Source of the DNA: a virus
IMG/VR virus record: IMGVR_UViG_3300007512_002205
Coordinates: 1-64,000 of that record
Strand: one strand, 5' to 3'
DNA: 64,000 bases
Below, in pieces: positions 1,309 through 46,000 of the stretch. Positions within the stretch are counted from its first letter, which is position 1, and each line of letters starts with the position of its first letter. The position numbers were made by a program, and so were the translations under genes. The notes below the pieces were generated by a model. That model was not told the DNA's origin, searched no databases, and was given only the letters and a program-made list of their open reading frames with translations.

Positions 1309-1528
1309 TTTCACCCCCCAACCAATCTTTTGGATGCCAGACGCCATCCTTAAAACAAACACAGTGCTTTACTTCGCTGAAGTTTATCTTAGTGTGGGGA
1401 TCTGGCATACATATTTCTGCACACTTAACGGACCAATCCGCATCTCTTTTTATGAGGAACCCGCTTCCAATAAGTATCGCACTAATAAACAGCACAAGAA
1501 ACACTGGCACAACATAATCACTCTTCAT
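1301..1528 (-). CDS. Small single-pass membrane protein
   Basis: The 75-residue protein has one hydrophobic segment near residues 7-27 followed by a Lys/Arg pair and a polar tail with four cysteines (VKCAEIC, HCVC). It is probably an inner-membrane protein with its Cys-rich tail outside, by the positive-inside rule, but topology is inferred. The ATG at 1528 is chosen because GGAGGTGAT is placed ideally upstream; the helicase stop lies just inside the gene, overlapping 11 bases. No function is assigned. Confidence 0.55.
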   Translation of the reverse strand: MKSDYVVPVFLVLFISAILIGSGFLIKRDADWSVKCAEICMPDPHTKINFSEVKHCVCFKDGVWHPKDWLGGENE

Positions 1529-2903
1529 CCTTATCACCTCCATTCTTTTTGAAATCTTTATATAATTCTTTGATACGATTCTTTTGTTTCTTCAAAGCAT
1601 TCTCTTTTATGTCTTCAACTGTTTCACCTGTTGGTTCAAGAACCTCAATCCTAATTGAGGCTGTGTCCATGAAAACAGGATACACCAAGCCATCAGGACC
1701 GTTACGATTTTTCGCAATGAAAACACGACCACCATTGGCGTTCTTATCTTCAATTGTTCTCGACAGTGTGAGAATAAGATCGGCAACATAACACTTGCTA
1801 AATGCTTCTGCAATGCTTTCCATTGTAATAACTTCAGCATTGAGGCCGGATCTGTTTGTCTGTGAAGCCGTCCACACAGGGCACTCAAGTTCCTGTGCGA
1901 TGCCTCTCAAATCCTCATAGATTGTCTCAAGTTCCATGCGTTTTTCACGGTACACCTTGATCGGTCTTAACAGATCGCCATAATCAACAATGACAAGATC
2001 AACATCGTGGTTGATATTCTTGAGTTTTTCAAGATGATTTCTCAACGTTGCTGTTGTCGCCTTCTTTGTTGGATATTCCTTGATAATAAGCTTGTCTTTG
2101 TACTTCTTAACTTCATCGAACACATCTTCTTTAAATGTAAACAAATCTTTCAAAGAATAGTTTGTCAAACACGCATCGTAACGTGTTCCGATAACAGTTT
2201 CACTGAGTTCCATTGTATAATGAACAATGGATTTGCCCGCCTTCAATGCAGCGGCACCAAGATGAACAAGGGCCATAGATTTACCTGCTCCTGTTGGAGC
2301 AATGACAACGCCAAGTTCTCCCTTGCCATGACCACCCTTTGTCAGCTTATCAACAAGATCCCAGCCTGTTGTGATGGGGTTTCTCGACTTCATCATATAT
2401 CTCTGCTCAAAGTCTTTGATGTAATCATAGCCTATATCGTTGTTCATGCCGAGTTTGAGTGCTTCCCCGATGAGGGAACTGATTTCATCAAACGAAGCCT
2501 TCTGAAGCAATTGTGCGGACTTTATGAGGGCAGTCTTGAGCTTCTGCTTCTTGCAAAAGTCAAGCGCCGTCTCTTTGATGAACATTTCATCTTCAATCGC
2601 CTTGTTCGCAAGGCATCTCGCAAAATATTCACGCACCATTTTTTGTGTTGCTTCGTTTTCATCGTCAAGATCTGCACGCAACATCGTGATCATTGCTGAA
2701 TCTGACGGGTGTGTGCTATATTTGTCTTTATAATCGAGCAGTTTCAAAACAAAAACTTGCAGATGTTTCAGTTCAAGAAAGTTAACATCAAGAACCTCTC
2801 GAAATTGATCGCAAAAAGGGCGATCCTGATACATAATGTGAACAAGCTTCTCTTGAAAGAGCTTTCCAAAACGTGAAAAATCAACCTTTTGGTCGAAGTC
2901 CAT
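1518..2903 (-). CDS. DnaB-like replicative helicase (T4 gp41-type)
   Basis: The 461-residue product is a hexameric SF4 helicase of the DnaB/gp41 type, expected to unwind the fork 5' to 3' using NTP and to recruit primase. Residues 1-150 form a helical N-terminal domain; the RecA-like core starts near 175. Walker A is APTGAGKS at 202-209, Walker B is LVIVDYGDLL at 303-312, and TASQTNRSG at 345-353 matches DnaB motif 4. Length fits the family. A consensus sigma70 promoter lies directly upstream, and GGAGG precedes the ATG, so it is probably transcribed early. The primase partner is encoded at 47061-48020. Confidence 0.92.
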   Translation of the reverse strand: MDFDQKVDFSRFGKLFQEKLVHIMYQDRPFCDQFREVLDVNFLELKHLQVFVLKLLDYKDKYSTHPSDSAMITMLRADLDDENEATQKMVREYFARCLANKAIEDEMFIKETALDFCKKQKLKTALIKSAQLLQKASFDEISSLIGEALKLGMNNDIGYDYIKDFEQRYMMKSRNPITTGWDLVDKLTKGGHGKGELGVVIAPTGAGKSMALVHLGAAALKAGKSIVHYTMELSETVIGTRYDACLTNYSLKDLFTFKEDVFDEVKKYKDKLIIKEYPTKKATTATLRNHLEKLKNINHDVDLVIVDYGDLLRPIKVYREKRMELETIYEDLRGIAQELECPVWTASQTNRSGLNAEVITMESIAEAFSKCYVADLILTLSRTIEDKNANGGRVFIAKNRNGPDGLVYPVFMDTASIRIEVLEPTGETVEDIKENALKKQKNRIKELYKDFKKNGGDKDEE

Positions 2904-2926: not shown

Positions 2927-2955
2927 ATTATACTGAATCTGAGTGTTCTAGTCAA
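2927..2955 (-). promoter_or_regulatory. sigma70 promoter for the helicase gene
   Basis: On the minus strand TTGACT (2955-2950) and TATAAT (2932-2927) are separated by exactly 17 bases. The -35 box overlaps the stop codon of the exonuclease gene. The likely transcription start is about 15 bases before the helicase ribosome binding site. Recognition by host RNA polymerase is inferred from consensus. Confidence 0.85.
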
Positions 2956-3926
2956 GACGATCTGAATGGTGTCTTGTTGTATGAAATGTTTTGCAAATTT
3001 GCGAACATGCCTGTCCAGTTGTACTGGGCGATCCCGTCAAGGATCATCATTTTTGTAATTTGTGTCTTGTTAAGATCGAACGGATACTTTGACAGCAAAT
3101 TTCTGATTTTCATTCTCACCCCACCAGATACAAGAGGTGAATATAACTGCACAATCTTATAGTTCTCTTTGATTTTCTCTTCCTGTTCAACAATCTTATC
3201 AAAGAGTTTCAGCTTGCCTTCATAGTCCTTGCAAAACTGAACAATGTCTGTGATTGTCTTTGTGTCCTCTTCGATGAAGAGGGGGATCTTCTTTGCAAGG
3301 GTTGTGAACCCTGCCCCACGGATACCCTCAACATTATCGCTCTTATCGCCAACAATCGCCTTTGCCAATGCAAAGTTTGTTGGGTGAATTTTAAAATCTT
3401 CAACAAGAGTTTTTCTTGAGACAAACTTCTTTTGAATAGGGCGGTAAATGATTGTCTCTTCATCGGCCAACTGGAAAAAATCTTTGTCGCTTGACACAAT
3501 AACTTTTTCCCATCCGGGATACTCTTTTATAACAGATGCAATGATATCATCAGCTTCGATACCATCAAAGATGAACTGTGTCAGTGGCATGTTACTCAGG
3601 TATTCAATAAGGTGTGTCTGCTGCCACAGTTTGTTTTCATCTTCCTGTTCAGGTGTTAGCTGGACTTCTCTTCTGTTAAACCGCATTGGTTTGCGGCCCT
3701 CTTTATAACCACTGCTCATTGCTCGTCGTTTCTGTGACCCTCCGGGGCCATCCCAACAAACAATAATATGGTCTGGTCGTATCTCTCTTAAAAAGACTTG
3801 CATTGTTTTTAAAAAACCAACAACACCCCCGACAGGTAAGCCGTTGGGGGTGAGTGTGGGATTTACAATAAGTGATCTGTAGTAGCTATTGAGGCCATCT
3901 ATAATCAGTACTCTATTCTTTTTCAT
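2952..3926 (-). CDS. 5'-3' exonuclease / flap endonuclease (T4 RNase H-like)
   Basis: The 324-residue product has the acidic metal-binding residues of the FEN/5'-nuclease family: LIIDGLN (7-13), VCWDG (56-60), arginine/lysine-rich YKEGRK (74-79), EADD (124-127), SSDKDFFQL (145-153) and GDKSDNVEGIRGAG (193-206), the last being the helix-hairpin-helix approach. The role is removal of RNA primers and flaps on the lagging strand, working with SSB, ligase and polymerase encoded nearby. The ATG at 3926 follows AAGGA; an upstream in-frame start near 4040 would overlap the GC-rich cassette and adds no family sequence. It overlaps the preceding small gene by 14 bases. Confidence 0.9.
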   Translation of the reverse strand: MKKNRVLIIDGLNSYYRSLIVNPTLTPNGLPVGGVVGFLKTMQVFLREIRPDHIIVCWDGPGGSQKRRAMSSGYKEGRKPMRFNRREVQLTPEQEDENKLWQQTHLIEYLSNMPLTQFIFDGIEADDIIASVIKEYPGWEKVIVSSDKDFFQLADEETIIYRPIQKKFVSRKTLVEDFKIHPTNFALAKAIVGDKSDNVEGIRGAGFTTLAKKIPLFIEEDTKTITDIVQFCKDYEGKLKLFDKIVEQEEKIKENYKIVQLYSPLVSGGVRMKIRNLLSKYPFDLNKTQITKMMILDGIAQYNWTGMFANLQNISYNKTPFRSS

Positions 3927-4074
3927 TTTGTTCCTTTTGTTTTTCTGGGTCGAGTGTGCGGACGATGGCTTCGTGGGCTGCGTCCATGAGATTCTCGCAC
4001 CGTGCTGCGGAGCATTTGGTTGGCTCCAAGAGTCGCTCAACGATGTCCATCTGCTCGATCTCAGTCGGTTTCAT
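3913..4074 (-). CDS. Small acidic protein in GC-rich cassette
   Basis: The 53-residue product starts MKPTEIEQMDIVERLLEPT and is mostly helical and charged, with two cysteines (KCSAARC). No family is recognised. The ATG at 4074 is preferred because the longer reading from 4119 overlaps the zinc-ribbon gene more deeply. The 5' part is GC-rich like the cassette upstream, while its 3' end drops to the AT-rich phage composition, so one cassette boundary lies within or just after this gene. Confidence 0.5.
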   Translation of the reverse strand: MKPTEIEQMDIVERLLEPTKCSAARCENLMDAAHEAIVRTLDPEKQKEQNEKE

Positions 4075-4297: not shown

Positions 4298-4779
4298 TCA
4301 CCTCCCAGCGCAGGCGGGTCGGGAAAATGCCGGCGCACGATGTCGGCGCACTGGGCGTGCGTCTCTGCGCGGGCGGCGGCGGCGGCATCGGCGGCATAGG
4401 CGGCGGCATAGGCGGCATCGGCGGCGGCATAGGCGGCATCGGCGGCGGCATAGGCGGCGGCATAGGCTGCCCGCACATCCCGCAGTGACACCCCGTCGTC
4501 ACCGCGAGCCCACGCCCTGGCAGTCTCGATCGCTCGCCTCGGTCGTTCCTCACCCTCCGGTACATGCACCAGCGCCAGCTCCGCGCAGTCGCACGCGGCC
4601 AGCACCAGTGTCCGGTGGTCACCGCCAGAATGACCGAGCAGCCACAGCATCCAGTCGCCGCGCTGGCAGTCGCGCCACGCCCGTGTGGGACTCCGGCGTC
4701 GGCCGAGCCATTCCACGGCAGCGGGACACGGGGTCTGCTGGGCGGTGGTTTCGATCTGACGTGTCAGTTTGCTAGTCAT
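4294..4779 (-). CDS. Imm5-like putative immunity protein with Ala-Tyr-Ala-Asp repeats
   Basis: The 161-residue product follows the pattern of the phage and bacterial Imm5-like proteins: CPAAVEWLG, then CQRGDWMLWLLGH, then TLVLAACDCAELALVHVPEGEERP, AIETARAWARG, an alanine-rich repeat stretch of AAYAA and AADAA blocks, and a closing CADIVRRHFPDP. The family is named from association with polymorphic-toxin immunity genes; its role in phages is not established. The ATG at 4779 has GGAGG six bases upstream and follows the coiled-coil gene with an 8-base overlap. Base composition is much more GC-rich than the phage backbone, pointing to recent acquisition. Confidence 0.75.
   Translation of the reverse strand: MTSKLTRQIETTAQQTPCPAAVEWLGRRRSPTRAWRDCQRGDWMLWLLGHSGGDHRTLVLAACDCAELALVHVPEGEERPRRAIETARAWARGDDGVSLRDVRAAYAAAYAAADAAYAAADAAYAAAYAADAAAAARAETHAQCADIVRRHFPDPPALGGE
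4372..4470 (-). repeat. GCC/GCT-rich short tandem repeats encoding AAYAA/AADAA blocks
   Basis: Imperfect tandem units built from GGCGGCATA and GGCGGCATC (plus-strand view) encode the alanine repeat of the Imm5-like protein. Similar repeats are common in this family, so they probably vary in number by slippage; variation here is not shown. Confidence 0.7.
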
Positions 4780-5017
4780 CTCGGGCCTCCAGCGTGGCGT
4801 CTGCCGCAGTCGGCGGAACGCGACCGCACACATAGCAGGTGCCGTCAGCGTGCAGTTCGCCGCCAAAGTGGCGGCAGGGCTCGTCGTCATTACAGGCGCT
4901 GATAACCTGCTGTCGCCAGCGCCGGTTTGCCGCCTCGATGACGCGCAACTTCGCGATCTCAGCCTGCGCCCGGTCAAGGGCGTCGGCGAGGTTCAACATT
5001 TCAATATCATTCTTCAT
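4772..5017 (-). CDS. Coiled-coil plus Cys/His protein in GC-rich cassette
   Basis: The 81-residue product has an N-terminal helix (MLNLADALDRAQAEIAKLR) predicted as coiled coil and a C-terminal Cys/His cluster: CNDDEPCRHFGG then CYVCGRVPP, plausibly binding one zinc. This arrangement recurs in small phage proteins of unknown function. The ATG overlaps the cyclotransferase stop by four bases (ATGA). Its start lies near the upstream edge of the GC-rich cassette: composition changes sharply near base 5020. Confidence 0.55.
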   Translation of the reverse strand: MKNDIEMLNLADALDRAQAEIAKLRVIEAANRRWRQQVISACNDDEPCRHFGGELHADGTCYVCGRVPPTAADATLEARDD

Positions 5018-5487
5018 TTAAGCCCTCTTTCTTTGGCATATTGTCGCCAGTCACCAGATTCAATTTTAATTCCCATAATCCGATCTCTTGGAACAAGATA
5101 CATCCAAGCTTCCATATTGTTTTCAAGGGGCACCTTGATTCTTTCATAAAAATTTGGATGCCCTTCAAGCTGATCAAGAGAAATCATCGCTTCGATATCG
5201 ACATCGTAAACTTCACCTTTTATTGGAACACCAGACTTGTCTTTGCTTGCTGCTGGGAAGTAACCAAGATCCTTCATAATGAAATTGTCTTTTGTAAAAG
5301 TTTCTTCAACAAATTTTGCTTCTTCATGTTCCATAAGGCCATGGTTTCCCATCCCGCTCATCAAAGAACCATAGACAAAAACAAGATTTTGTCGCTCCAA
5401 GTCCTCATCGTAACCGAGAAGCCATTCTTCATATTCGTCATCGTCCATTTCCTCATAACCGTCGTCCCAAATATAATCCTCACTCAT
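5014..5487 (-). CDS. Gamma-glutamylcyclotransferase-like (AIG2/GGCT fold)
   Basis: The 157-residue protein has an acidic N-terminal extension rich in Asp/Glu/Tyr (about residues 1-34), then the GGCT signature VFVYGSLMSGMGNH near 36-49, which forms the substrate-binding loop, followed by GEVYDVD and LDQLEGHPNFYERI typical of the fold. The family converts gamma-glutamyl peptides to 5-oxoproline or acts on gamma-glutamylamines; the substrate of phage members is unknown. The ATG at 5487 follows AAGGAG. The reading upstream of it in the same frame overlaps a separate small basic gene and is rejected as coding. Confidence 0.8.
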   Translation of the reverse strand: MSEDYIWDDGYEEMDDDEYEEWLLGYDEDLERQNLVFVYGSLMSGMGNHGLMEHEEAKFVEETFTKDNFIMKDLGYFPAASKDKSGVPIKGEVYDVDIEAMISLDQLEGHPNFYERIKVPLENNMEAWMYLVPRDRIMGIKIESGDWRQYAKERGLK

Positions 5488-5509
5488 GGCTTCTCCTTGG
5501 GGTATACAT

Positions 5510-5650
5510 TTATTTGCCTTGTCCCTTATACCTCTTTTTATATAGCTTGCTCTTCTTATTGTGGGCGTATTTGGAAAATTTTCCATTGCCCTGTCTTGTC
5601 TTTTTACTTTTCGTTTCACTCCTCTTTGAAGAGTTTTTCTTGCTGGCCAT
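5510..5650 (-). CDS. Small highly basic protein, 46 residues
   Basis: This unlisted short gene sits between ligase and the cyclotransferase. It starts MASKKNSSKRSETKSKKTRQ and ends KKRYKGQGK, with about 40 percent Lys plus Arg. Its ATG overlaps the ligase TAA by one base (TAATG) and AAGGAGG lies upstream. Short Lys/Arg-rich proteins of this kind occur in other T4-like phages, without known function; nucleic-acid binding is plausible from charge alone. Confidence 0.6.
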   Translation of the reverse strand: MASKKNSSKRSETKSKKTRQGNGKFSKYAHNKKSKLYKKRYKGQGK

Positions 5651-6744
5651 TACTTGTCCTCCTTAATTCGGATTGCTTTGCCAATTGGGAAACGTGGAAT
5701 GTTGTCCTCACTCTTCCCAAAGAATCGCACTGTGAGTTGTTTACCATAAAAACTTTCTGCTGATTTGAGCCAATCTTTTCGTTGTTCCATTGTTCCCTCG
5801 GGAACAACCTGAAATTGTTGGCCATCTATTGTCTCGCATGTCCAAATCACAGCGTCTATCATCTTGCCTTTGCCATTGGTGCTACCAACAATTGTGAATT
5901 CTTCATCATCAAAGTTTTTGAATTTCAACAAGTCTCTGCTTCTATGTCCAAGCTTATATTTGCCATCATCAAGTCTGATGATGAGTCCTTCATAACCCTT
6001 CTTGATATAATAAGCCTGCATATCAAAGACCTCTTCTTCAGAAATCACTGTTCCTGTTTTTATAGGAAAGATATATTCGCAATCATTCAAGGTTTCCTCA
6101 AAGACATCATCGATTGTGTCTTTACGAGCTGACCATGTATCATCCAATTTCTTGAGGTCAACAACATCATAAACATAGAATTTCAATTCAATGCTTTCCG
6201 GCCTGTTCTTTTTTACGAGCCTCATGAAAAGCTGAAACGGCATTCCATGAATATAAAGCTCCCCATCCAATACGATATTTTTTGGAAGACCTTTTTGATC
6301 AAGTTCGCTTGCGATATGAGGAACATTATATGGTTTACCACCACGACTCATAAGAGCAATCTTGCCGTCTTTCCAATATGCAAGGCAACGAACGCCATCA
6401 AGTTTTGGTTGAGTATCAACAGGGTAGGTGAGTTTTTTCTTTTTGGGATCCCACTTATGGGCAAGCATAGGGCTCAGTCTCACTGTTCCTTTCTTTGCAA
6501 CAGACGAAGCGTAGCCTTTATCTTGCTTCTTTTTTGCAATAGACTTTGCTTCAAGTTCTGCCTGTTCTTCAGGCAGTGTCTCGTTGGCCTTTCCAATGTT
6601 TTTGCCAACAGCTTTCTTCTCAGAGATCTGTGTCTTGCCATCGAGCAAACCATGCTCTGTATAAATTGAGTCTTCTTCTGTCCAAATTGACCAGACCCTT
6701 GTCTTTCCTTTTGAATCAGTTTTATAAAGTGTTATCTTATTCAT
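5650..6744 (-). CDS. ATP-dependent DNA ligase with N-terminal WGR-like domain
   Basis: The 364-residue enzyme seals nicks using ATP. Nucleotidyltransferase motifs are complete: motif I QPKLDGVR with adenylated Lys114, MSRGG at 132-136, motif III LDGE at 159-162, IIIa FYVYD at 189-193, IV YEGLIIR at 251-257 and V LLKFKNF at 272-278. A C-terminal OB fold follows, ending with RFFGKSEDNIPRFPIGKAIR. Residues 1-75 resemble a WGR domain (VWSIWTEEDSIYTEHGLLDGK), a nucleic-acid binding module seen on some phage ligases. It probably seals Okazaki fragments after the flap nuclease. It overlaps a small coiled-coil gene by eight bases. Confidence 0.92.
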   Translation of the reverse strand: MNKITLYKTDSKGKTRVWSIWTEEDSIYTEHGLLDGKTQISEKKAVGKNIGKANETLPEEQAELEAKSIAKKKQDKGYASSVAKKGTVRLSPMLAHKWDPKKKKLTYPVDTQPKLDGVRCLAYWKDGKIALMSRGGKPYNVPHIASELDQKGLPKNIVLDGELYIHGMPFQLFMRLVKKNRPESIELKFYVYDVVDLKKLDDTWSARKDTIDDVFEETLNDCEYIFPIKTGTVISEEEVFDMQAYYIKKGYEGLIIRLDDGKYKLGHRSRDLLKFKNFDDEEFTIVGSTNGKGKMIDAVIWTCETIDGQQFQVVPEGTMEQRKDWLKSAESFYGKQLTVRFFGKSEDNIPRFPIGKAIRIKEDK

Positions 6745-6892
6745 TGTTTTCCTTTAGTGCCTCTCTCAATATATCATCTGCCCAGGCGCTATCATCAGCC
6801 TCCAATGCGGCCTTGATGCCTTCTCGGAGACGTTTAATCTCTGCCTGCAATTTTTCAATCGTCTGATCCTGATCAAGCACCGTTTTATTCAT
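6737..6892 (-). CDS. Small coiled-coil protein between UvsX and ligase
   Basis: The 51-residue protein is almost entirely one predicted helix (TVLDQDQTIEKLQAEIKRL with heptad spacing) followed by an acidic tail. No family is recognised. Two adjacent ATGs exist (6895 and 6892); both lie inside the 3' end of the recombinase gene, and no strong ribosome binding site is seen, so translation may depend on coupling. Its stop overlaps the ligase start. Confidence 0.5.
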   Translation of the reverse strand: MNKTVLDQDQTIEKLQAEIKRLREGIKAALEADDSAWADDILREALKENNE

Positions 6893-8045
6893 CATCGCGT
6901 ACAGACTCGGCACCACTCTCCTCCTTGTCGACATCGTAAAACAACTCAGCATTGCCTGTTTTATCGTCAAACTTTTGAATTACTTCTTCGTCCATCACGT
7001 TCATTACTTCTTTCTTGAAATCTTTATCTTTCAATAGTGTAAGCCATTGCTTTGACTGGAACCTCTTTTCTTTTCCATCTCTGAACATGAGAGTATACCA
7101 CGAACCAGCAAGCTTCAACCTCTCTGAGTTCTTGATTGCTTCGAACCAAGACTCTTCATCACGGACTGCAACGTCGTCTGTTCCCCAGAGAATCTTGAAG
7201 GCGCATGTTCTTCCGTCTGTTCCAAAGCGCGACTTCTTAATCTTTGCCTTAACCTCGGAACCAATTCTGAAGCCTGCTTCGTTCGTTAGATAGCTTGCTT
7301 TTGATTTTCTATTCGTCAACCAAATTCTTAGTGAATATGAATAGTTCAAAGCTTTGCCGCCCGGTGTCGTATACGGTTCAATCATTGCTTGAATTCTTTG
7401 TGCGTTATCCTTCGGAATGAAGGTCTTCAGTTGATTCAGGCAGAGCAGCGTTGACCTTGTGTTTGCAAGCAGTTGGATAATCTTTGTCATTCCCTTTGCA
7501 AACACACGCGCCTTGACACCAACAGATGAATTGGGGTTGAAGTCTCCTTCAACGTCAGACACCGCTGGTGTCATCGCAATGGAATCCCATACAAAGAGCA
7601 TAGGACTTCCACTGTTTGCCAATAAATCTTCAATAGTTTCAAGAACAAATTCAACAGACGCTGCTTGAACGTATAGCAAATTTTCGATATCGCAACCAGT
7701 GTTTTTAAGAAACTCCGTATCAATTGCAGACTCTGCGTCAAAATATACAACATCTACCCCTCTCTCTTGTGCGTTCTTTGCGATTTGTGCGGCCATATAA
7801 CTCTTGCCTGTCGCTTCAAGCCCTGCGAGTTCAACAACTTTCCCCATGGGAATGCCGGCCAATTTTCCACGACAGATAATCGAATCAAGCCAACGTGAGC
7901 CTGTGGATATCCAATCATAAACATCTGTCGGATTCTTTTTTGTGAGATCATAAGCAACGTCGATGCCAGCCTTCTTGTTCACAAGCTTTCTCATCTCAGC
8001 AATTGACAAACGACCTTCTGCTTTCACTTTCTTTTTCTTTGCCAT
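6885..8045 (-). CDS. uvsX: UvsX/RecA-like recombinase
   Basis: The 386-residue product is a RecA-family strand-exchange protein. Walker A is GLEATGKS (75-82), FDAES at 102-106 matches the catalytic-Glu strand, Walker B is MLFVWDS (149-155), and LNQLKTFIP then PGGKALNY cover the L2 and core regions. A Lys-rich N-terminus and acidic C-terminus match UvsX proteins. It would load on SSB-covered DNA to start recombination-dependent replication together with the Mre11-Rad50 fusion. The ATG at 8045 follows AAGGAG. The gene lies just after a strong hairpin downstream of SSB, which may set the SSB to UvsX ratio. Confidence 0.92.
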   Translation of the reverse strand: MAKKKKVKAEGRLSIAEMRKLVNKKAGIDVAYDLTKKNPTDVYDWISTGSRWLDSIICRGKLAGIPMGKVVELAGLEATGKSYMAAQIAKNAQERGVDVVYFDAESAIDTEFLKNTGCDIENLLYVQAASVEFVLETIEDLLANSGSPMLFVWDSIAMTPAVSDVEGDFNPNSSVGVKARVFAKGMTKIIQLLANTRSTLLCLNQLKTFIPKDNAQRIQAMIEPYTTPGGKALNYSYSLRIWLTNRKSKASYLTNEAGFRIGSEVKAKIKKSRFGTDGRTCAFKILWGTDDVAVRDEESWFEAIKNSERLKLAGSWYTLMFRDGKEKRFQSKQWLTLLKDKDFKKEVMNVMDEEVIQKFDDKTGNAELFYDVDKEESGAESVRDDE

Positions 8046-8112: not shown

Positions 8113-8859
8113 TTAAGCACCAAGCAAGTCCTTAAAAGTATCTTCCACTGATTGTGGCTGATCCATCGGAATGTTCTGAGTTTCTGGCTCATCACCTCCT
8201 TCAGACTCAGAATTGCTTCCAAGCAGGTACTCATCAAGAATTGTCGCGACCTCATCAGATGTGCGTCGAACATTCAGTGACTCAAAATCAGGTTCAAAAT
8301 CAAGAATCTTGCCTCTGATCTTATCATCAACAGAAACTGGTGTTGACTTGCGCTTCGGAGTGGCCTTTGTTTTCAAGTAAGAACCACCGTCCTTATAACG
8401 CTTGATGGTGAGATCTGTTCCTGTATCAGGGTGTGACAAATCACCATAGTCGGGGTCCATGAAATAACCCATCAGTTCTGCATAGACTGTCGGACTATAA
8501 CCCCAATATTTTACACCGTCTTCCTCTTCACCACGCTTGACAGCAATAGAGAAGAACCGCTGCTTTGCAACGATCTTCGACGCTTCCTTCTTACTCTCAT
8601 CACTTCCTTCATTGTAAAGTTTTGAGGTGAAGTCACAAATGGCACACTTGTCACCAAAATTTCTCTTGGGACAAAGCACAGACCCCTTGTCAAGAACTCT
8701 GTAGTGAACGTAATAACTTCGGAAGGGATCTCCATCCGGTGTCGGAACCAAACGAATGACCGCTGTTCCATTTTCAGGAAGTTTCAGGTACTTGCTTCCG
8801 CCGCTATTCTTGTTTTGTAAATCGTTGTATCGTTGTTTAAGTTTTTCCATGTTTAACAT
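8113..8859 (-). CDS. Single-stranded DNA-binding protein (T4 gp32-like)
   Basis: The 248-residue protein matches gp32-type SSBs: an N-terminal basic/Asn-rich region (MEKLKQRYNDLQNK), the core strand KLPENGTAVIRLVPTPDGDPF, a zinc-binding segment with C63, C72 and C75 (CPKRNFGDKCAIC), and an acidic C-terminal tail ending DTFKDLLGA that would recruit partners such as UvsX and primase. The ATG at 8859 lies nine bases after AAGGAG; an internal ATG at 8850 is possible. A consensus promoter precedes it and a stable hairpin follows, both in line with high expression. Confidence 0.88.
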   Translation of the reverse strand: MLNMEKLKQRYNDLQNKNSGGSKYLKLPENGTAVIRLVPTPDGDPFRSYYVHYRVLDKGSVLCPKRNFGDKCAICDFTSKLYNEGSDESKKEASKIVAKQRFFSIAVKRGEEEDGVKYWGYSPTVYAELMGYFMDPDYGDLSHPDTGTDLTIKRYKDGGSYLKTKATPKRKSTPVSVDDKIRGKILDFEPDFESLNVRRTSDEVATILDEYLLGSNSESEGGDEPETQNIPMDQPQSVEDTFKDLLGA

Positions 8860-8905
8860 AAATTTTTGCTCCTTGTCGCCCGTAAGGGCGTGTTTGAATG
8901 CCCAC

Positions 8906-8934
8906 ACTATACCAAACTTTTGGGTAAGTGTCAA
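8906..8934 (-). promoter_or_regulatory. sigma70 promoter for the SSB gene
   Basis: TTGACA (8934-8929) and TATAGT (8911-8906) on the minus strand are separated by 17 bases. The -35 box begins four bases after the stop codon of the FtsZ-like gene. It is the strongest consensus promoter noticed in the window. Confidence 0.88.
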
Positions 8935-8937
8935 GGG

Positions 8938-9768
8938 CTAATCTTGAATAAAGTTGGTAAAAGCGTAAATATAAACGTATCTTTCGCGATAATCTGTTGG
9001 CACAATTTTATACGAAACACATAGGTCATCATCGTTCTTGGCCAATACCCTTCGAACATCTCCGAAAATAAACTTTCGACCCTCAAGTTCCTCAGAGGGG
9101 ACAGCAAATCCATACTGCTTTTCACGAATGTTCTCAAAAGGAAAGAAATAGTTTTCTTCTTCGCTCTCAATATTACACATTCCAATGGTTGCAATCCTGG
9201 ATATTTCTTTTGGTTCAACAAACTCACCGGCAACCGAATCTGTATTTACGACATAATCTCTCATCAAAATTGCTGAACTTATCACGTCATTTATTCTTCT
9301 ATTGTAGTCCATTATGGACAGGTCTTCAAGAGTTTTCTCTATCTTCTTGTTATCAAAGAGAACCATGTTGCTCAACAAACCTGAACGTGAAAACTCTTGA
9401 AGGATTTTGAACGTTGCCCTGGCTTTCAGTCTTTGGTCCTCAGAACAAAGATCGAGGTCTGGTCTGATATAGAAAACAGTTATGTCCTTCTTTTTCAATT
9501 GCTCCAACAAAACAAGCGTGCTCCCCGTCACGTCACCACCACCAGCAAGGATAAAATATACCTTCCCCTCCAGCTCTGTGAATTCAGATACAAAAGGTGT
9601 GTTTTCCTCATAAGCCCTGAACGACTCTTGCTTGCCAAGAAGCACAGTTCCGGGGCCATCAAGGGATCCTTCCGCATCGATTAAAAGAACTTTATAGTTG
9701 GCGGTGTCAAAGAGGAATTTTGTTGCAATAGCGCACCCGGCATGTCCCAAACCAATAACATTAATCAT
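8938..9768 (-). CDS. Divergent FtsZ/tubulin-like GTPase
   Basis: The 276-residue product has the layout of the tubulin/FtsZ GTPase domain. VIGLGHAGCAIA (4-15) matches the first glycine loop, LLIDAEGSL (28-36) the next strand-loop, and ILAGGGDVTGST (73-84) the tubulin signature loop, usually GGGTGTG or GGGTGSG, here with two residues between the glycine triplet and TGS. TVFYIRPDL, a long helix, VLFDN (136-140) and DYNRRINDVI near 154-163 match the following guanine-binding segments. It is shorter than bacterial FtsZ or PhuZ (about 315-400) and lacks a long C-terminal tail. It overlaps the polymerase gene by eight bases. Whether it polymerises, binds GTP or positions phage DNA is unknown. Confidence 0.7.
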   Translation of the reverse strand: MINVIGLGHAGCAIATKFLFDTANYKVLLIDAEGSLDGPGTVLLGKQESFRAYEENTPFVSEFTELEGKVYFILAGGGDVTGSTLVLLEQLKKKDITVFYIRPDLDLCSEDQRLKARATFKILQEFSRSGLLSNMVLFDNKKIEKTLEDLSIMDYNRRINDVISSAILMRDYVVNTDSVAGEFVEPKEISRIATIGMCNIESEEENYFFPFENIREKQYGFAVPSEELEGRKFIFGDVRRVLAKNDDDLCVSYKIVPTDYRERYVYIYAFTNFIQD

Positions 9769-10945
9769 ATCTTTTCATACTCCCATAATTTTTGCCGACA
9801 CTCACATTTGCTTTGAATTTCCCAAGCTCTGTTTCCTCGAAAGTTTTGATGAGTTCTTTTAAGGTCCCCGTATCTTCAACAGAGAAGTCAAGAACGATTG
9901 AATCGTGGACCATGAATGCAACAAAAGACTTCTTCTTTGCAAGCATCTCATCGACCTTTATAACCTGACGCATAAAGTTGTCACTCGCTGTACTCTGCAC
10001 GATGTTGTTGAAGGCACACCGATCATCCGACTCAATGGTCCTTCCAAAGACTGTGGTGACGCTCTGGCCATCGAAAAACTTTTGGATGACCTTGGGCCTA
10101 TCATAAAACTTCTCAAGCAGCTCGTCATTTCGTCCAACGTCATAGAACCATGTGAATATATTCTTCTTTGCCTGATCTCTTGTCAGGCCATTCTTGAATA
10201 AATTCTTTCGGTTCCATTCATGAATGTCAGAGTGTGGTTGCTCCTGCCCCGCAAGAGAACAAAAGACTCTCAGTTCGTTGGCGTTGAAATCTAGCTCAAC
10301 AAACCTGTCATTCTTTGGGATTATAGCCTTTCGAACCTTTTTGTCGAGGTTTAAAATTGGAAAACTTCCACGTTCAGTTACCAGCCTACCTGTTTTTGTC
10401 CCTTCAATCACATACTTTATGTACTTGCTCAAATCCCTTGACCCTTTGTAAAACTTAAGGACTTGTTTATCGGCAAGCTCCCCTTTCAAAGAATCTCTAT
10501 TCAAAGAGATTTCCTGTTCTGAAATCCTTGTAATGAGTTTGCTCAAGCTTAACAAAAGATCGTAATCTTTTGGTCTTTCATGGGTTTCAAGTACATGTCC
10601 AACAATTTCATTTTTAAGAGTGAAGTACTCCTTTAAAAACCTCTCTGGGACAAGATCGTAAAAACAATGCTCATTCAGTGAAATTTTTGAAATCCTAAAT
10701 GACTTAATGAAAGCTTTCATTCTGTTACAGGAGTCTTCCCAATCCTCTTCAAGTCTCTCAGGGCAAACATCACTAAGGGTTTTGCCCAAACAATAAAGCT
10801 TAACGTACTCAACCCCAGGGAAGTCTGAATTTTTGGTGAACTCCCACGTCGCAGACAGCCCATCAGGGATGTCATCCATGTATATTTCGCCATCAGCGAA
10901 TATACCAACACATTCGTTTTTTGAATCCATTGTACTGAAAATCAT
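9761..10945 (-). CDS. Short family A DNA polymerase
   Basis: The 394-residue product carries the pol A polymerase motifs: GTKTGRL (182-188), motif A VELDFNANELR (216-226), motif B RDQAKKNIFTWFYDVG (256-271), GRTI then AFNNIVQSTASDNF (301-324) and motif C FMVHDSIVL (344-352), which keeps the catalytic His-Asp with Ser where Glu is usual. Thumb-like sequence precedes motif A. No 3'-5' exonuclease motifs are visible in the first 170 residues, so proofreading must be absent or encoded elsewhere. T4 itself uses a family B enzyme. The start overlaps the preceding stop (TAATG); MDSKNEC at 10930 is an alternative. Confidence 0.88.
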   Translation of the reverse strand: MIFSTMDSKNECVGIFADGEIYMDDIPDGLSATWEFTKNSDFPGVEYVKLYCLGKTLSDVCPERLEEDWEDSCNRMKAFIKSFRISKISLNEHCFYDLVPERFLKEYFTLKNEIVGHVLETHERPKDYDLLLSLSKLITRISEQEISLNRDSLKGELADKQVLKFYKGSRDLSKYIKYVIEGTKTGRLVTERGSFPILNLDKKVRKAIIPKNDRFVELDFNANELRVFCSLAGQEQPHSDIHEWNRKNLFKNGLTRDQAKKNIFTWFYDVGRNDELLEKFYDRPKVIQKFFDGQSVTTVFGRTIESDDRCAFNNIVQSTASDNFMRQVIKVDEMLAKKKSFVAFMVHDSIVLDFSVEDTGTLKELIKTFEETELGKFKANVSVGKNYGSMKRYD

Positions 10946-12237
10946 TAGAACCCTAGAAAGCTTTTCTTATTGGCCGTCAATTCCGGCTTGATTATAGTAC
11001 CAGATCCCTGCTTCCGACGCAAGTTAATGTTGTTCAGCGAATCATATCGGGCAGCTAAGGTCCCCAAATTATAGTTAATGTATTTCAGAGCTTTATTGAG
11101 CCCCTCTTTCTCTTTTTTGACAGATCGATACGTCTTCAAGATATGAAGAAATGATGTTTCATGAAACTTTTGTCTTTGAAGAGTTAATTTCGCATTGATT
11201 TCCACCTGTCTTACCTTGTAAAAAAAGTTTAAAAAGAACACTGCTGGATCTTCAATCTCGATTGGTGGACGCTCGTTCACTTTTTTGATGATGTTGCCAC
11301 AAACACCATCAGAGCCAATGAATTCGTAATAAAACGGTGCAATGTTCTTGAACGCATTATACATTGTCTCAACAATCGAACGAAACTCTGCAAAATAGTC
11401 CTCTTTTCCACCATCAAAAGCCCCAAACAAAGGGTAGTAGTACAAGCCAAATATCGATTGATACATTTCAACAGGATTGTCTGGTATCTTTATGTATCGC
11501 GAAATATAAGGAAGGGCCTTCTCCGACCTTATGTCGAACACAAGCCTCCAGGGCATTCCTTTATCAAGTTTAAAGCCGAACTCGACACAACGCTTACAAA
11601 AGAACTCAAAGTTTGGATCTCCCATGAATTCTTGTCGTATAGAATCATCCCCTTCATCAAGATCAAAGAGATCAATAACCATCCCCGTTGACAATGATGA
11701 TGCGTCTGGTCCTTCATGAAAGCTTACTCTCGACATAGGAATTTCTGTGTCTCTTATATAAGACAAGAGGACCTTGAGAAAATCATCAAAGTTCTTTATC
11801 TGATTTGAGTGCTGAACGGGGATCAGCCTGTCTCCGAGGAGTCCAAAGTAAAACTCGTCAATGTGTCCACCATAAAAAGAGTTTGAGCTTTCCCACGCTC
11901 TTTTTGGAACAAGGTCGTTTGTGAAAAACTTTGAATTGGGGTTAATCACGCCGGATCGAAACTCTGATTCGTATTTTGTTCTTAAATCGTCAAAAGCATC
12001 GGTCACAAAATCCAAACAAGCAAGCATCTCAGGATCTCCAATGCGAGATAAATATTTCAACCTACTTTCCCGAACAAGAATGACATCACCTTCCGTGTCA
12101 ACTTTGCCATAATACGGAATCTCTTTCCAAAGATCGATTTGTGTTCTTTTCGTTGGAAAAGCTTCGTTAAATTCTTCTCTTTCATTGAAGAATTCTTTTG
12201 GCCCGACACCATTTTTCGCTGTTGATATAAGAGCCAT
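10945..12237 (-). CDS. Conserved-looking protein of unknown function (probably virion-associated)
   Basis: The 430-residue protein has no recognised domain. It is soluble, rich in aromatic residues, with notable stretches YYGKVDTEGDVILVRES (42-58), GMPWRLVFDIRSEK near 248-261 and a basic C-terminal helix (SVKKEKEGLNKALKYINYN). I recall similar MPWRLV-type segments in large structural proteins of marine myoviruses, but this is recollection, not a search result. It is encoded immediately downstream of the 900-residue protein (three-base gap) and upstream of the polymerase, at the junction of baseplate and replication genes. The ATG follows GAGGG at about nine bases. Confidence 0.6.
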   Translation of the reverse strand: MALISTAKNGVGPKEFFNEREEFNEAFPTKRTQIDLWKEIPYYGKVDTEGDVILVRESRLKYLSRIGDPEMLACLDFVTDAFDDLRTKYESEFRSGVINPNSKFFTNDLVPKRAWESSNSFYGGHIDEFYFGLLGDRLIPVQHSNQIKNFDDFLKVLLSYIRDTEIPMSRVSFHEGPDASSLSTGMVIDLFDLDEGDDSIRQEFMGDPNFEFFCKRCVEFGFKLDKGMPWRLVFDIRSEKALPYISRYIKIPDNPVEMYQSIFGLYYYPLFGAFDGGKEDYFAEFRSIVETMYNAFKNIAPFYYEFIGSDGVCGNIIKKVNERPPIEIEDPAVFFLNFFYKVRQVEINAKLTLQRQKFHETSFLHILKTYRSVKKEKEGLNKALKYINYNLGTLAARYDSLNNINLRRKQGSGTIIKPELTANKKSFLGF

Positions 12238-12240
12238 GGA

Positions 12241-14943
12241 TTATAGTCCCTCTGAAGAGTCTTTCACCTTCTCCGCAACAGAGCCTGCTTTTTGCTTTTC
12301 TTTTGCAGGTTGTGATTTCTTTTTGATTTCTGGTTTTGTCTCTTTTGTTAGACCAAGACGTTTAAGGACGTTTGGATCGTTTTCAAAAGAATCCTTTATG
12401 TAAGATAGTGGATCGTACCACACAAAATCTTTGAGTTTTTCTGTTGTTTTGTTATCCCCAGCAACAGCTTTGTTCTTCTTTTCCTTCACATCTTCAGGGT
12501 TGTGAATCCACATGCCCTCTATTGATGTCTCATAACTCCCGTTGGCATCAATGACATCTGTTGTGTTGTGAATACCATAATATCCAACAATACCAGGATC
12601 GTATGCCCCAACAATTCCAAGAGGGTTTGCTGGGACTGCGAAATAGCCGCCTTTAAAAAACAAATTGCTTCCAAACATTTTAGCGTTTGCGGTATAAGTG
12701 TATTTCAAAACCGTGGCAGCCGAATCTGATCTCGTCTGATCCCACAAAGCCTTTCTTAAACCCGGCATATCTTCTGAAGAGAAGTCCATAGACTTCAAAA
12801 CTCCGTTTGCTGCACCGATCTTTAAATGTGGAATTCCGTTTGCTGCATCCCTTGATTCATTAAAGTTCTTCAGCGACCCAACAGACACGCTAAGGTATGG
12901 ATTCACTATTTTTGACATCGCGTTTGTTACTTGGTGATAATACACCAAAGATTTGACATCTCTTATTCCCAAAGTGTTTGGTGCATGGCAAATATTCAAA
13001 AGCTTTTTAAATGTTCCACGATGAGAACTCTTATAGACCTCAAATAAAAGATCTCTACTCGGCTTTGAATCGATATACAGCAACGTCCTTTTAACAGGGC
13101 CAATGTTACTCTTGCTAAGGATTGTAGAATTGTTATACACAGCGGCTGGGATGAGCTTGTCTGTGATGTCGTTCATGAAGTCAATAAAGGAATACTCAAC
13201 TCTTTGAGCTTTGATTGCATTTTCATAATACCATTTTTGGAACGTTTTCACTTCAATAAGAACGTCCCCAATGTTCAAAGAGTACTCTCTATTAAATGAA
13301 CGACCAATCATGTTCCCAAGGCCAACAAAAGGAACTTTCTTTCTCTCTTCTACTGGCAACAGATCAAGCACGGCACCAACAAGAGCCCTCAATGGAAAGA
13401 ACATTGTGTGACCGTATTCTTTTCCCTTTTGAAACCCAACCGGAGTATTAAACGTTGTGCGAAACATTTTCAATGCCGCTTCTCTTGCGCCACTCACAGC
13501 TTTCACACGTTCTGCCGGTGTCAAATTTGCAAGTTTGTTTGTGGTTTTTGAAAAATCAAAATCTTCAAGTCGATATTCGTTGTGAATCTTTGCCAAGCGA
13601 AGGAACTCCCTATCTTTCGTACCTTTCTTAGGGACAACAAGGTGAAGGTTCCCATCAACGGTGAACACGGGATCATCATCCTTCTCTTCTTCTTTCGATT
13701 CAAAAGAGATCATGAACATTTGATATTTTGCAATCAAATAATTGATAAACATCTCAGAATCTTTTGGAGCCAACAATTTTCTCAGAGCCTGAACCTGTTT
13801 TGACAGCTCTCTCTGTTCGTCAACCAACTCTTTCATTTTTTTATCTTTTTTCTTTGAGTTCTTTTTGGCATCGGAACCTTTTTTGCCGACCTCAATGATT
13901 CCCTTCTTCTTAGATGCCTGCCCTTCTTTATTCAACTCTTTGTTTATCTCTTCAAGTCTCTTTTTGCCGCCGAGATAGCTCTTTGCTGCATCTCGTGTGC
14001 TCTTGTTTTTTATTGTAGCCTCCATAAGAGCAGGGTTCCCAACGATAGCTGTATCTCCTTCAGAAAAAAGATCGGCCTCTGCTGACAAGAAGTATTCAAC
14101 CCCCAATTTAACCGAACCATCCTGATCAAAACTGAAGTTGTGTCCTCCGTATCTCAATGGGAATCTTTTTCTCTCTCTTAATTCAATTGCTCTTCGAAAC
14201 TCTGATGGGATTATTGAAGCGTCAACGTCCTTATTAACTCCCCAACCATATTCTAAAAGGATCTGCTCCGTCTTAGAAGGTAATGAACCGATTAGTTTGA
14301 TGAAACTAAATGGCTTATCTGCTGGAAGTTTTGAATGAGGGCGTTCTCTTGTCAGGATATTTATACTTTGAAAATAAAACCTTGCACTTACATTGACGAC
14401 CTTCAAATACGCATACGTTGAAAAATCTCTCTTGACGGTTATCCCTTCAATGCCCGCACCATCACCTCTCGAAAATCTGTTTCCGGTTATGTCTTTTATA
14501 TTTGTTTTGATTTCAAATGGAAGTGGGATTTCGGTCCAGTTTTTGTCCTCTGCTTTCTTTTTGAAACGATAAATGAATCGCATTCTTGGATAAAGAACAG
14601 CAAGTTGTGATTCGTCAATGTTTGAAAAAAACTGAACGTAGTCCTTGTACTTGACCTTTTCAAATTTTGAATCTCTTGATGACAAAACTGTCGATTCGAA
14701 CTCGTCATGATGATAAGGGTTCAATGAAAACATTTGCTCATCTTTAATCACCCTCTTGCGATTTATATCTTTTAGAAGGTCAGGGCTTATGTTGAACTCT
14801 TTTGCAACAACGGGATCAATGTTTGGGTGATATAGAACCTGGGCAAGGGTGTCTGTGCTTTTGATTTGACTTGTCAAAAAGTCTGTCACCCACCCCTGCG
14901 GGTTTAAATTCTCATGTGGAAAAAATATCTTAATATTACTCAT
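12241..14943 (-). CDS. Large putative baseplate or virion protein
   Basis: The 900-residue protein is not recognised by motif. It contains a strongly charged Lys/Glu-rich coiled-coil region near residues 310-400 (ASKKKGIIEVGKKGSDAKKN and following), flanked by two beta-rich parts, and a C-terminal Lys/Glu/Pro tail (KPEIKKKSQPAKEKQKAGS). No transmembrane segment or signal peptide is visible. It lies 11 bases downstream of the gp53-like baseplate gene, so a baseplate or tail-hub role is inferred from neighbourhood only. Ribosome binding site is weak (AAGG at a distance). Confidence 0.6.
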   Translation of the reverse strand: MSNIKIFFPHENLNPQGWVTDFLTSQIKSTDTLAQVLYHPNIDPVVAKEFNISPDLLKDINRKRVIKDEQMFSLNPYHHDEFESTVLSSRDSKFEKVKYKDYVQFFSNIDESQLAVLYPRMRFIYRFKKKAEDKNWTEIPLPFEIKTNIKDITGNRFSRGDGAGIEGITVKRDFSTYAYLKVVNVSARFYFQSINILTRERPHSKLPADKPFSFIKLIGSLPSKTEQILLEYGWGVNKDVDASIIPSEFRRAIELRERKRFPLRYGGHNFSFDQDGSVKLGVEYFLSAEADLFSEGDTAIVGNPALMEATIKNKSTRDAAKSYLGGKKRLEEINKELNKEGQASKKKGIIEVGKKGSDAKKNSKKKDKKMKELVDEQRELSKQVQALRKLLAPKDSEMFINYLIAKYQMFMISFESKEEEKDDDPVFTVDGNLHLVVPKKGTKDREFLRLAKIHNEYRLEDFDFSKTTNKLANLTPAERVKAVSGAREAALKMFRTTFNTPVGFQKGKEYGHTMFFPLRALVGAVLDLLPVEERKKVPFVGLGNMIGRSFNREYSLNIGDVLIEVKTFQKWYYENAIKAQRVEYSFIDFMNDITDKLIPAAVYNNSTILSKSNIGPVKRTLLYIDSKPSRDLLFEVYKSSHRGTFKKLLNICHAPNTLGIRDVKSLVYYHQVTNAMSKIVNPYLSVSVGSLKNFNESRDAANGIPHLKIGAANGVLKSMDFSSEDMPGLRKALWDQTRSDSAATVLKYTYTANAKMFGSNLFFKGGYFAVPANPLGIVGAYDPGIVGYYGIHNTTDVIDANGSYETSIEGMWIHNPEDVKEKKNKAVAGDNKTTEKLKDFVWYDPLSYIKDSFENDPNVLKRLGLTKETKPEIKKKSQPAKEKQKAGSVAEKVKDSSEGL

Positions 14944-43093: not shown

Positions 43094-46000
43094 TTAGACA
43101 TGGGCAAATCCCTCAACGTTGTCAATTTCTACAACATGGTCGACAACATCTTTCAACCCATCTATATGAGTAATTAGAAGTACGACCTTGAAATAACCTT
43201 TTAAAAGTTCAAGTATTTCTGTCATCTTCTCCATATTCTCAGGGTCCAATGCTGTTCCAGGCTCGTCAAGAATAAAAATATTTGATTTTGGCAAATTTGA
43301 AATGTTCAACAAGGCAATACGAATTGCCAAAGCTGCAAGGGTCTTTTCCGCTCCAGAGCCGTTCTCAACAAGCCGCGCACCTGTATCTCCATGTGAGATG
43401 TAAATCTCAAGCTTCCCGCTTTCATCACAAAATTCAACCTGAAAATCTCCAATTGAAGAAAGAACCGCTTTGATCTCTTTATTTATGACCTCAAGGCTGT
43501 TCTTGACAAGTTCATATGATATCCCACTGCCATGAACACACTTAAGGTATTCTTTCAAAGCTGTTGCTTCGCTTACTTGGGTTTCATATTCTTCTTTTCT
43601 TTCCTCAAGCGAACTTAACTCCGCGTTTAACCTACCAGAGTTTTCCAAATACAAACGATAATCATTCTCGCCTTTCTGTTTTTCCTCTTCAAGCGCAGTG
43701 ATCGCCATGGAAATTTCTTTTTCAGAACTGACCGAATCAAAAGTATCACAGAGAACTTCCTGATTGTCGTCATAATATTTTAAATCTCTTTCCAATTTCT
43801 CAATCTTCTTGTCAATACCCTGCAAGAAGTTTTTTCCAACTGCTTTTTGAAGTTTGAGGTTTATATTTTCAGCGGAAACCGTATCGACCTTTTTCTTCAG
43901 CTCGTTATATTTTTCAATATACTTGCCTGTTCTCTCTGGATTAAGGTTTTTTACCTCCTGAATGAGCTGTCGAATGCGTTTTTTAAGTTTCTCTGAGTCG
44001 TTCTGGAGGGCTTCTCTTTTTGAGGCACACTCACTCGCCTCACTTATAAACTTACACAAACCAAGGAACTCAGAACCGCAAGGGATATCTTTCAAAAACC
44101 CCTCTTTCTTTTCACAAGAAGAAATCTCTTCCGAAATCTTCGACTTCTCTGACTTCGTTTCAGATAGCAGGTTTTGTTTTTCCTCAATCTTGTTGAGGTT
44201 TCCTTTGAGAACGTCATAATCAAAACTTGAAATAAACGAACCAGCTTTCCTTAAAAAGGATTCGTTTTCAACAATTTTTTTTCTCAACTCTTCCTGGGCG
44301 TTTATTTTCTTCTTTCTGATGCTGTGCTGGAAGACCAAGCTTGCTTTCACCTTATCATGAGTCAGTTCTGGTAAATCTATGCCCTCAAGCTTCCTTTCCA
44401 CCTCTTCAAGAAGGCGAGTTTTCTCCTTTAAGGCTTCTTCTTGCTTTTCTATTGAACTCTTGACTTTGTAAATGTTTGCTTGGTTTTCAAAAATTTCTTG
44501 TTTCTTATCCTTAATCAAAGCATCAAAAGTGTCTTCTATTCTTGCGAGCAAGGTCTTCGTGAAGTTATAGTCTTTCTTTGCAAGATCATGTTTTTCCTTA
44601 AAGAACCTCAAGTCAAGAAACTTCTCAAGAAGTTCCCTCCTCTTTGTTGAGCCCTCATCGATAAAACAAAAAGCTCCTGTTTGAGATGACATTGATGTCA
44701 TAAGAAAATCTTCCAACGCCCCAAACACCTTACGAATCTCTTGCTCTGTTCTTGCTTTTGTCGTCCCATTCAGAGACTCTCTTTCGCCAGTCTGTTTATC
44801 AACAAAGGAAAAGTCTAACGTTGATTCCGTTTCTTTTGGATTCTTTCTTTTTGACTTCTTATGAACCTTCGAAAGCTTCCTTGAAATCGCATAAGTGCCG
44901 TCATCAGCCTCAATCTCAACGACGCCAGAGCCCTTTTTCTTTGAGTTGTTGATGATGTCATAAGGGCGGCGTACATTCTTAGAAGTATTATTAAAGATTG
45001 TATAAAGTAATGAATCAACAATGCTAGACTTACCACTAAAATTTTTACCAAATATGCCAACAACGCCAACATAACTACCAAAACAAAGAGAGTTGCCTTC
45101 ATCATAATTGAACAGGTTTGACCACTCAAAGTCTTTAATGCTCCACAGAGTTCCTTTCTCAAACCTGTTCTCCTTATTCACCAAAGAGCCGTACTTTTTA
45201 TCTAATTTCAAAACATCTTCGATAAGTTCCTCGTCTTCATCTTGTAAGAAATCCTTGATGAGTTCCTTTTGAGTGGCCTCATCTGAATAACTCTCAAGTT
45301 TCTTGAGTCTTTTCGTGTTCTCCTTATCGTCAACAAGGTTCAAAAAGGAAACCGACTCCGGTTTTATAATAGATTTTATCTCACCAACCTTTTTATTAAG
45401 TATATCAACTGGTAAATTTTGTTTGAAAACGAGTCTCGCTCTTACACCCTTGGGAATATTAAGTTCCTCAACAATAAGGTTCTCATCAACGCCAATTGTA
45501 ATAAAAGGCTTTGGATTCGTTAAAGCAACAAACTCCGTCGTAAATCTGTCTTTGTCTTCAATATCCCAAATAAGATATCCTTTTTCAACCTCTTCACCAA
45601 AGTTCTGCTGAATCAATGAACCTGGATATGCTTTCCTCTTTGAAACAAATTGTCTCTTGTGAATGTCCCCAAGGAAGGTGTAATCATATTGATCAAAAAG
45701 GTTGTCCTCTTTCCCGTGGATCTTCCAGCCCGTATCCGTCAGACACTTACCAACCTGACCATGATACATGGCAAGATTGACCTTTGATTTATCCTTTGGA
45801 GTGAGCCAGCCGTCTGAATCAAAAATTGAAAGAGAATATAACGAAAACCCATCATCAAGATCGACACAGCAAGAGTCCTTCATTAAGTGAAGGTTTTTAT
45901 GCTGCAACGTTGTAACAATAGGAGTTATTGAATCTTGTCGAAAACTGTTCTTCAAATTGCCGTCGTGGTTTCCAAGTATAAGATACGTTGGACAAACGTC

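Follow-up and report, generated by a model that had tools for sequence, protein, structure and literature searches.

A predicted tubulin/FtsZ-superfamily protein of uncultured T4-like phages, encoded in the replication operon between PolA and gp32

The 276-aa protein encoded at positions 8938 to 9768 of the window (the whole stretch of 64,000 nucleotides analyzed here, which is part of a contig of 121 kb) is best explained as a member of a family newly recognized within the tubulin/FtsZ superfamily, one that has so far been seen only in viruses, is fixed in the replication operon of a lineage of T4-like phages, and is proposed to undergo GTP-dependent assembly. A probability of about 55% is assigned to this reading. 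Computation shows the fold, the conserved residues of the nucleotide pocket, purifying selection, and the fixed gene order. The fold as such is not new; a search of libraries and of mostly open-access journal papers yielded neither the family nor its genomic setting nor the loss of the acidic residues of the T7 region.

The gene, its predicted fold, and its relatives

The gene and the structural elements that define the fold are located as follows.

8938 to 9768, minus strand: divergent tubulin/FtsZ-superfamily protein of 276 aa, predicted from the ORF, an AlphaFold2 model (82-member alignment, pLDDT 94.4), and Foldseek
9244 to 9315, minus strand: predicted central helix H7 (residues 152 to 175) with Asn160, from DSSP on the AlphaFold2 model
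8941 to 9198, minus strand: predicted small C-terminal sheet domain (residues 191 to 276) without H11 or a C-terminal tail, from the secondary structure of the model

The ORF starts with ATG and overlaps the ORF of the family A DNA polymerase (PolA) by exactly 8 bases (9761 to 9768) at the stop of the latter, so that the length of 276 residues and the 8-base overlap given in the initial annotation agree with the ORF coordinates. A Shine-Dalgarno-like GGGAG is present upstream of the start; such motifs were found before 20 of the 36 tested genes of the window compared to 17% of random positions. The IMG/VR record IMGVR_UViG_3300008954_000003 (159.6 kb) contains the same sequence, with 99.97 to 99.995% identity over the 32 kb compared. 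Because 81 other homologues could be aligned and the dN/dS values between close pairs of homologues were 0.02 to 0.12, the ORF is real, far beyond chance, and the family is under purifying selection.

An alignment of 82 members (A4), composed of the 81 homologues and the 276-aa protein, was used as input for AlphaFold2 and resulted in a model with a mean pLDDT of 94.4 and a pTM of 0.92. The order of the elements in this model is that of FtsZ: S1-H1-S2, S4-T4-H4-S5-H5-S6-H6, then H7, which is 24 residues long, and a small sheet domain at the C-terminus, with the protein ending 5 residues past the last strand. The two-domain architecture with the central helix H7 joining both domains, a trait of the superfamily, is present. 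In a Foldseek comparison with the PDB, each of the top 50 matches was FtsZ (E values of 3e-13 to 2e-11), with TM-scores of up to 0.77 at an identity of about 11 to 18%. The alignment-based model and this list of matches together decide the fold as that of FtsZ/tubulin, and membership of the protein in the tubulin/FtsZ superfamily is, as judged from the model, almost certain. This is what the initial annotation had proposed, and the structure prediction gave the opposite of the plain Rossmann fold that had been named there as the outcome speaking against it.

Profile comparisons pointed to FtsZ with less force. In hhalign, A4 and an FtsZ alignment were co-linear across T1, T4, T6, and H7 with a P value of 0.0018 and a probability of only 15%, the FtsZ template being shallow, and the Tubulin and ftsZ HMMs gave weak matches in 8 and 7 of the 82 members, respectively. 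A Rossmann dehydrogenase-like protein without kinship to tubulin would be suggested by the NAD-binding TrkA_N domain, which was weakly matched by 19 of the 82 members (best E = 0.00022), and by a match of Pyr_redox_2 to the 276-aa protein (E = 0.061). These weak Rossmann-type matches arise because the first beta-alpha-beta unit is shared, and the confident model possesses the tubulin topology with H7, the 50 best Foldseek matches being FtsZ, which makes this explanation very improbable. The TrkA_N and Pyr_redox matches were set aside as chance or shared-Rossmann hits, as were those to hsdM and phrog_28477 (E = 0.13). A phmmer match to alpha-tubulin (E = 0.086) was not significant, had a T6/H7 register that was off by about six residues, and was not used. 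An AlphaFold2 model of the single sequence (pLDDT 42) and its Foldseek list served as a lead only.

Searches with the single protein did not reveal the family. No match near any cut-off was obtained for the 276-aa protein in Pfam, PHROGs, or NCBIfam, and TIGR00065, the curated FtsZ model, scored 16 bits with a cut-off of 295; the carriers are not annotated for the tubulin-like gene because there is no clear match in the profile libraries. Single-sequence tblastn against INPHARED and single-protein pattern scans of IMG/VR yielded only the same phage or distant relatives of the polymerase or terminase, and tblastn with three family members as queries found nothing in 50,697 phage records. Relatives surfaced only when the exonuclease of the operon was aligned with the exonucleases of Mel-JY01, immuto, and LR756508, which led to 80 IMG/VR loci. 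Fifteen of these carry a homologue of the tubulin-like gene in the slot between PolA and gp32 (14 strong ones and one fragment at a contig end). A 12-member alignment (A3), reached in this way through the exonuclease, then retrieved at least 592 related stretches from IMG/VR, of which the best 80 were fetched. The 81 aligned homologues are 24 to 40% identical to the 276-aa protein.

A pattern scan of 84,980 bacterial and archaeal genomes, which requires the motif VLQEYARSG and is therefore not exhaustive, found no relative. With the A4 profile, no copy was detected in immuto, Mel-JY01, LR756508, RM378, HTVC008M, S-WAM2, DP SC_6, or 201phi2-1, and a search of immuto, Mel-JY01, and LR756508 with Pfam Tubulin gave nothing above the cut-off. 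FtsZ matches also turned up in records labeled "phage"; these appear to be host sequence and were disregarded. In BFVD, the collection of viral models, phage proteins annotated as FtsZ, as cell division protein, and as tubulin are among the best four Foldseek matches. The view that known phage tubulins belong to jumbo phages or plasmid-like prophages, as put forward in the initial annotation, is thus incomplete as a list, since BFVD also holds FtsZ/tubulin-fold proteins of other uncultured tailed phages.

Position in the replication module of the carrier phages

At least 95 sampled contigs from an uncultured group of T4-like phages have the tubulin-like gene in their replication cluster. The following genes surround it in the window.

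10945 to 12237, minus strand: conserved 430-aa protein directly upstream of PolA, without a convincing Pfam or PHROG match; 70 homologous ORFs across the loci sampled
9761 to 10945, minus strand: family A DNA polymerase, PolA, 394 aa (PF00476, DNA_pol_A, E = 2.5e-15)
8113 to 8934, minus strand: gp32-like single-stranded DNA-binding protein (PF08804, E = 2.8e-9; phrog_1192, E = 1.1e-23)
6885 to 8045, minus strand: UvsX/RecA-like recombinase (PF00154, E = 4.9e-36; phrog_97, E = 3.7e-54)
2952 to 4040, minus strand: 5'-3' exonuclease (phrog_107, E = 3.5e-35)
1518 to 2903, minus strand: DnaB-like replicative helicase (phrog_19, E = 1.2e-74)

Both the family A polymerase as neighbor and the T4-like character of the genome, which had been read from the letters before, were confirmed by these matches, the latter by gp32 and the UvsX-like RecA. 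In the 95 sampled IMG/VR loci, PolA was the next recognized gene upstream in 86 cases (eight contig ends and one without) and gp32 the next recognized gene downstream in 92 cases (three contig ends), so that contig ends account for all but one of the 12 exceptions; "next recognized gene" means here that small unassigned ORFs may intervene. UvsX, the exonuclease, and the helicase follow gp32 where the contig is long enough. The slot between PolA and gp32 is a lineage-wide arrangement in the sampled loci, and the adjacency to PolA reported for the window is one instance of it. Adjacency of genes stands for co-expression and co-inheritance, not for a shared complex.

The same order of PolA, an intervening gene, gp32, UvsX, exonuclease, and helicase is found in immuto and LR756508, where the ORFs occupying the slot are unrelated. 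Mel-JY01 has a PolA-like ORF further upstream, and other ORFs lie between it and gp32-UvsX. In a terminase tree, the five carriers included form one clade (96/96) outside these phages and outside the T4-like cyanophages and pelagiphages; this clade adjoins Flavobacterium phage immuto and Microcystis phage Mel-JY01. The longer carrier contigs are 102 to 168 kb in size, and none of them is jumbo-sized.

The fixed position bears on the possibility that the protein is a host-takeover mimic, which copies FtsZ and co-assembles with or caps the FtsZ of the host to stop division during infection. The nearest solved structures are all FtsZ according to Foldseek, and FtsZ-binding phage proteins are known, for instance, Gp0.4 of phage T7 (PMC13423816). 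Host-takeover genes are mobile, unlike the tubulin-like gene, which was never outside the PolA-gp32 slot in the sampled loci, and the identity to FtsZ of only about 11 to 18% makes a matching polymer interface doubtful. Because of the fixed place in the replication operon, such a mimic is less likely and is considered quite improbable.

Some further features of these loci should be mentioned. In two of them, L193 (4230 to 8837) and L192 (644 to 5251), about 2.5 kb of extra sequence is present between PolA and the tubulin-like gene; in most carriers, the two genes overlap or are only a short distance apart. The 394-aa PolA (9761 to 10945, minus strand) appears to be without a proofreading exonuclease domain, and a separate 5'-3' exonuclease is encoded at 2952 to 4040. 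A 900-aa protein without library matches, encoded at 12241 to 14943 (minus strand) between a gp25-like baseplate gene and the gene for the 430-aa protein, has 58 homologous ORFs in the sampled loci and is possibly a baseplate component. An unusual auxiliary gene for a GGACT gamma-glutamyl cyclotransferase (5014 to 5619, minus strand; Pfam E = 3.5e-23) is located just beyond the DNA ligase gene (5650 to 6744) of the replication region. The 1,036-aa ORF at 43094 to 46204 (minus strand) looks like a fusion of a gp47-like metallophosphoesterase (residues 1 to 108) and a gp46/SbcC-like part (residues 293 to 1033), two recombination subunits that T4-like phages such as S-WAM2 encode in separate genes.

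Nucleotide pocket, T7 region, and the end of helix H5

The segments of functional interest were assigned from the A4 alignment and its hhalign register with FtsZ.

9733 to 9753, minus strand: T1 glycine loop GLGHAGC (residues 6 to 12), aligning with IGVGGGGGNAV of Escherichia coli FtsZ
9520 to 9543, minus strand: T4 signature loop GGGDVTGS (residues 76 to 83), equal in length to FtsZ GGGTGTGA in hhalign
9349 to 9351, minus strand: T6 Asn140 at the position of the guanine-binding Asn of FtsZ (E. coli N165) in the hhalign register, 79 of 82 members
9199 to 9243, minus strand: T7 region (residues 176 to 190), without a conserved catalytic acid or NxDxxD by A4 conservation
9379 to 9405, minus strand: end of helix H5, ILQEFSRSG (residues 122 to 130), family motif VLQEYARSG with invariant Q124, R128, and S129

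The glycine loop GLGHAGCA (residues 6 to 13) and the segment AGGGDVTGST (residues 75 to 84) highlighted in the initial annotation are both present. Conservation in T1 is 82/82 for G6, 81/82 for G8, and 78/82 for G11, and in T4, it is 80/82 for G76, 66/82 for G78, 78/82 for S/T81, and 64/82 for G82. An insertion of two extra residues relative to GGGTGTG, as assumed previously, does not exist: GGGDVTGS and FtsZ GGGTGTGA align position by position without a gap, D-V taking the place of T-G. The loop of most relatives is GSGxISGA, and compared to the superfamily signature GGGTG(S/T)G, most members contain GxGxx[ST]G with D-V or x-I instead of T-G. As to the later guanine-binding segments, Asn140 in T6 and Asn160 in H7 align with guanine-binding positions of FtsZ. 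Asn160, aligned by hhalign with N186 of E. coli FtsZ, is kept in 81 of 82 members, so that the T6 Asn and the H7 Asn/Asp, both guanine-binding traits of the superfamily, are present family-wide. As judged from these sequence positions, the nucleotide pocket is largely kept in most members, and the tubulin-like protein is likely to bind GTP.

The T4 loop is weakened in L038, L047/L048, L054, and the members with GASIISGA. Subfamilies with degraded T1/T4 loops, such as GSSLSSIY, are encoded at 4440 to 5321 of L038, 613 to 1473 of L047, 49 to 909 of L048, and 5405 to 6232 of L054. The dN/dS between L047 and L048 is 0.04, indicating purifying selection despite the degraded loops. In the subfamilies with weakened loops, nucleotide binding may be abnormal or lost, and these proteins could be nucleotide-independent versions.

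The aspartate in T7 is the catalytic residue in the phage proteins TubZ and PhuZ (PMC3678025), and the hydrolysis mutant D198A of PhuZ forms filaments at all expression levels (PMC10299810). In the T7 region of the family, the best positions for Asp or Glu are 177 (67% of the members) and 188 (72%), and 7 of the 82 members have an acid at neither; a scan of positions 165 to 192 in A4 found none with Asp or Glu in more than 72% of the members. With no acid reliably retained in T7, the protein is not expected to hydrolyze GTP in the usual way; hydrolysis should be slow or proceed via other residues.

Conservation of the H5 end in A4 is partly circular because members were selected on this motif. 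It was therefore rechecked in A3, the 12 members of which had been reached without using the H5 motif. The pattern in A3 is [VI][LF]Q[EQ][YFM][AST]RS[GNA], again with invariant Q124, R128, and S129, and the mean entropy of the H5 end (0.78 bits) compares to that of T1 (0.77 bits), making the H5 end, together with T1, the most conserved segment of the family. The end of H7 plus T7, with 1.87 versus 1.74 bits for the whole protein, is not conserved. From the fold topology, the H5 end is predicted to be at the pole opposite the nucleotide, which is the same pole as that of T7, and this site would meet the nucleotide of a neighboring subunit or a partner in the replisome.

Proposed function and comparison with known systems

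The tubulin-like protein would bind GTP and associate head to tail, or with a replisome partner, via its conserved poles. The resulting GTP-dependent filaments or oligomers may organize or hold PolA, gp32, UvsX, the helicase, or the replicating DNA. If hydrolysis occurs slowly or by other residues, the invariant R128 and S129 at the predicted pole opposite the nucleotide are candidates, and any filaments should be less dynamic than PhuZ or FtsZ filaments. A polymeric scaffold for replication is suggested tentatively, with somewhat less than even odds. The most specific version, a replication-coupled tubulin that is near-universal in a widespread T4-like lineage of ordinary genome size, assembles with GTP inside the replisome or replication focus, and has its hydrolysis activated by the neighbor through Q-x-x-x-R-S at the H5 end instead of the T7 aspartates, is unlikely in all its details.

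The main rival to a scaffold is a replisome GTP switch that does not form filaments, with a monomeric or dimeric GTP-binding subunit regulating PolA or loading gp32/UvsX, so that the tubulin fold was retained as a nucleotide sensor and cytoskeletal assembly was lost. The fixed position between PolA and gp32, a T7 region without a conserved acid, the minimal C-terminal domain without a tail, and the single strongly conserved patch at the H5 end, possibly a site for binding of a partner, would all agree with such a switch. Retention of the nucleotide pocket in most members argues against it, as does the active site of the superfamily, which is normally completed by the neighboring subunit, and a switch of this kind is regarded as somewhat unlikely.

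In a large group of T4-like phages of ordinary size, the replication operon thus has a gene of the tubulin superfamily as a constant component, which suggests, as an idea open to testing, that a cytoskeletal fold acts directly in phage DNA replication. For the superfamily, this is a natural experiment, with the pocket kept, the catalytic acids of T7 gone, and a different site conserved.

The protein resembles FtsZ in its predicted fold (Foldseek E = 3e-13, TM-score up to 0.77), the glycines of T1 and T4, the T6 Asn, the H7 Asn/Asp position, and the length of T4. It differs from FtsZ by its size of 276 aa versus 383 aa in E. coli FtsZ, by a smaller C-terminal domain, and by having neither the NxDxxD motif in T7 nor a C-terminal peptide. 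Moreover, FtsZ is the cell-division GTPase of bacteria and archaea, whereas the tubulin-like gene is part of a phage replication operon.

PhuZ and the TubZ of phiKZ, from nucleus-forming jumbo phages, are likewise phage-encoded proteins of the superfamily. They possess the catalytic Asp in T7, and their C-terminal helix H11 bears an acidic tail that takes part in assembly (PMC3678025). The protein described here has no conserved T7 Asp and lacks both H11 and the tail. No match of the A4 profile was obtained in the genome of 201phi2-1, which encodes PhuZ, and an hhalign comparison of A4 with this PhuZ was not significant. Unlike those jumbo phages, the longer carrier contigs reach only 102 to 168 kb. 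With the phage and plasmid TubZ of the TubRZC partition systems, the superfamily fold is shared, and the matches obtained with the low-confidence model of the single sequence included TubZ; the tubulin-like gene, however, is flanked by PolA and gp32 instead of partition genes, and its product is devoid of a C-terminal tail.

The carriers resemble the Far-T4 phages, a deep-branching, uncultivated group of T4-like phages from aquatic habitats in which the replication module is separate, and they probably belong to this group or to a close neighbor of it. Neither tubulin nor FtsZ appears in the main text describing the Far-T4 phages (Roux et al. 2015, PMC4360716). A precedent for divergent families within the superfamily is provided by FtsZl1 and FtsZl2, which are cellular proteins with long C-terminal extensions, the elements from T6 to H7 not being confidently identifiable in FtsZl1 (Makarova & Koonin 2010, PMC2875224). 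In contrast to these proteins, the members of the tubulin-like family are short, viral, and have retained T6 and H7.
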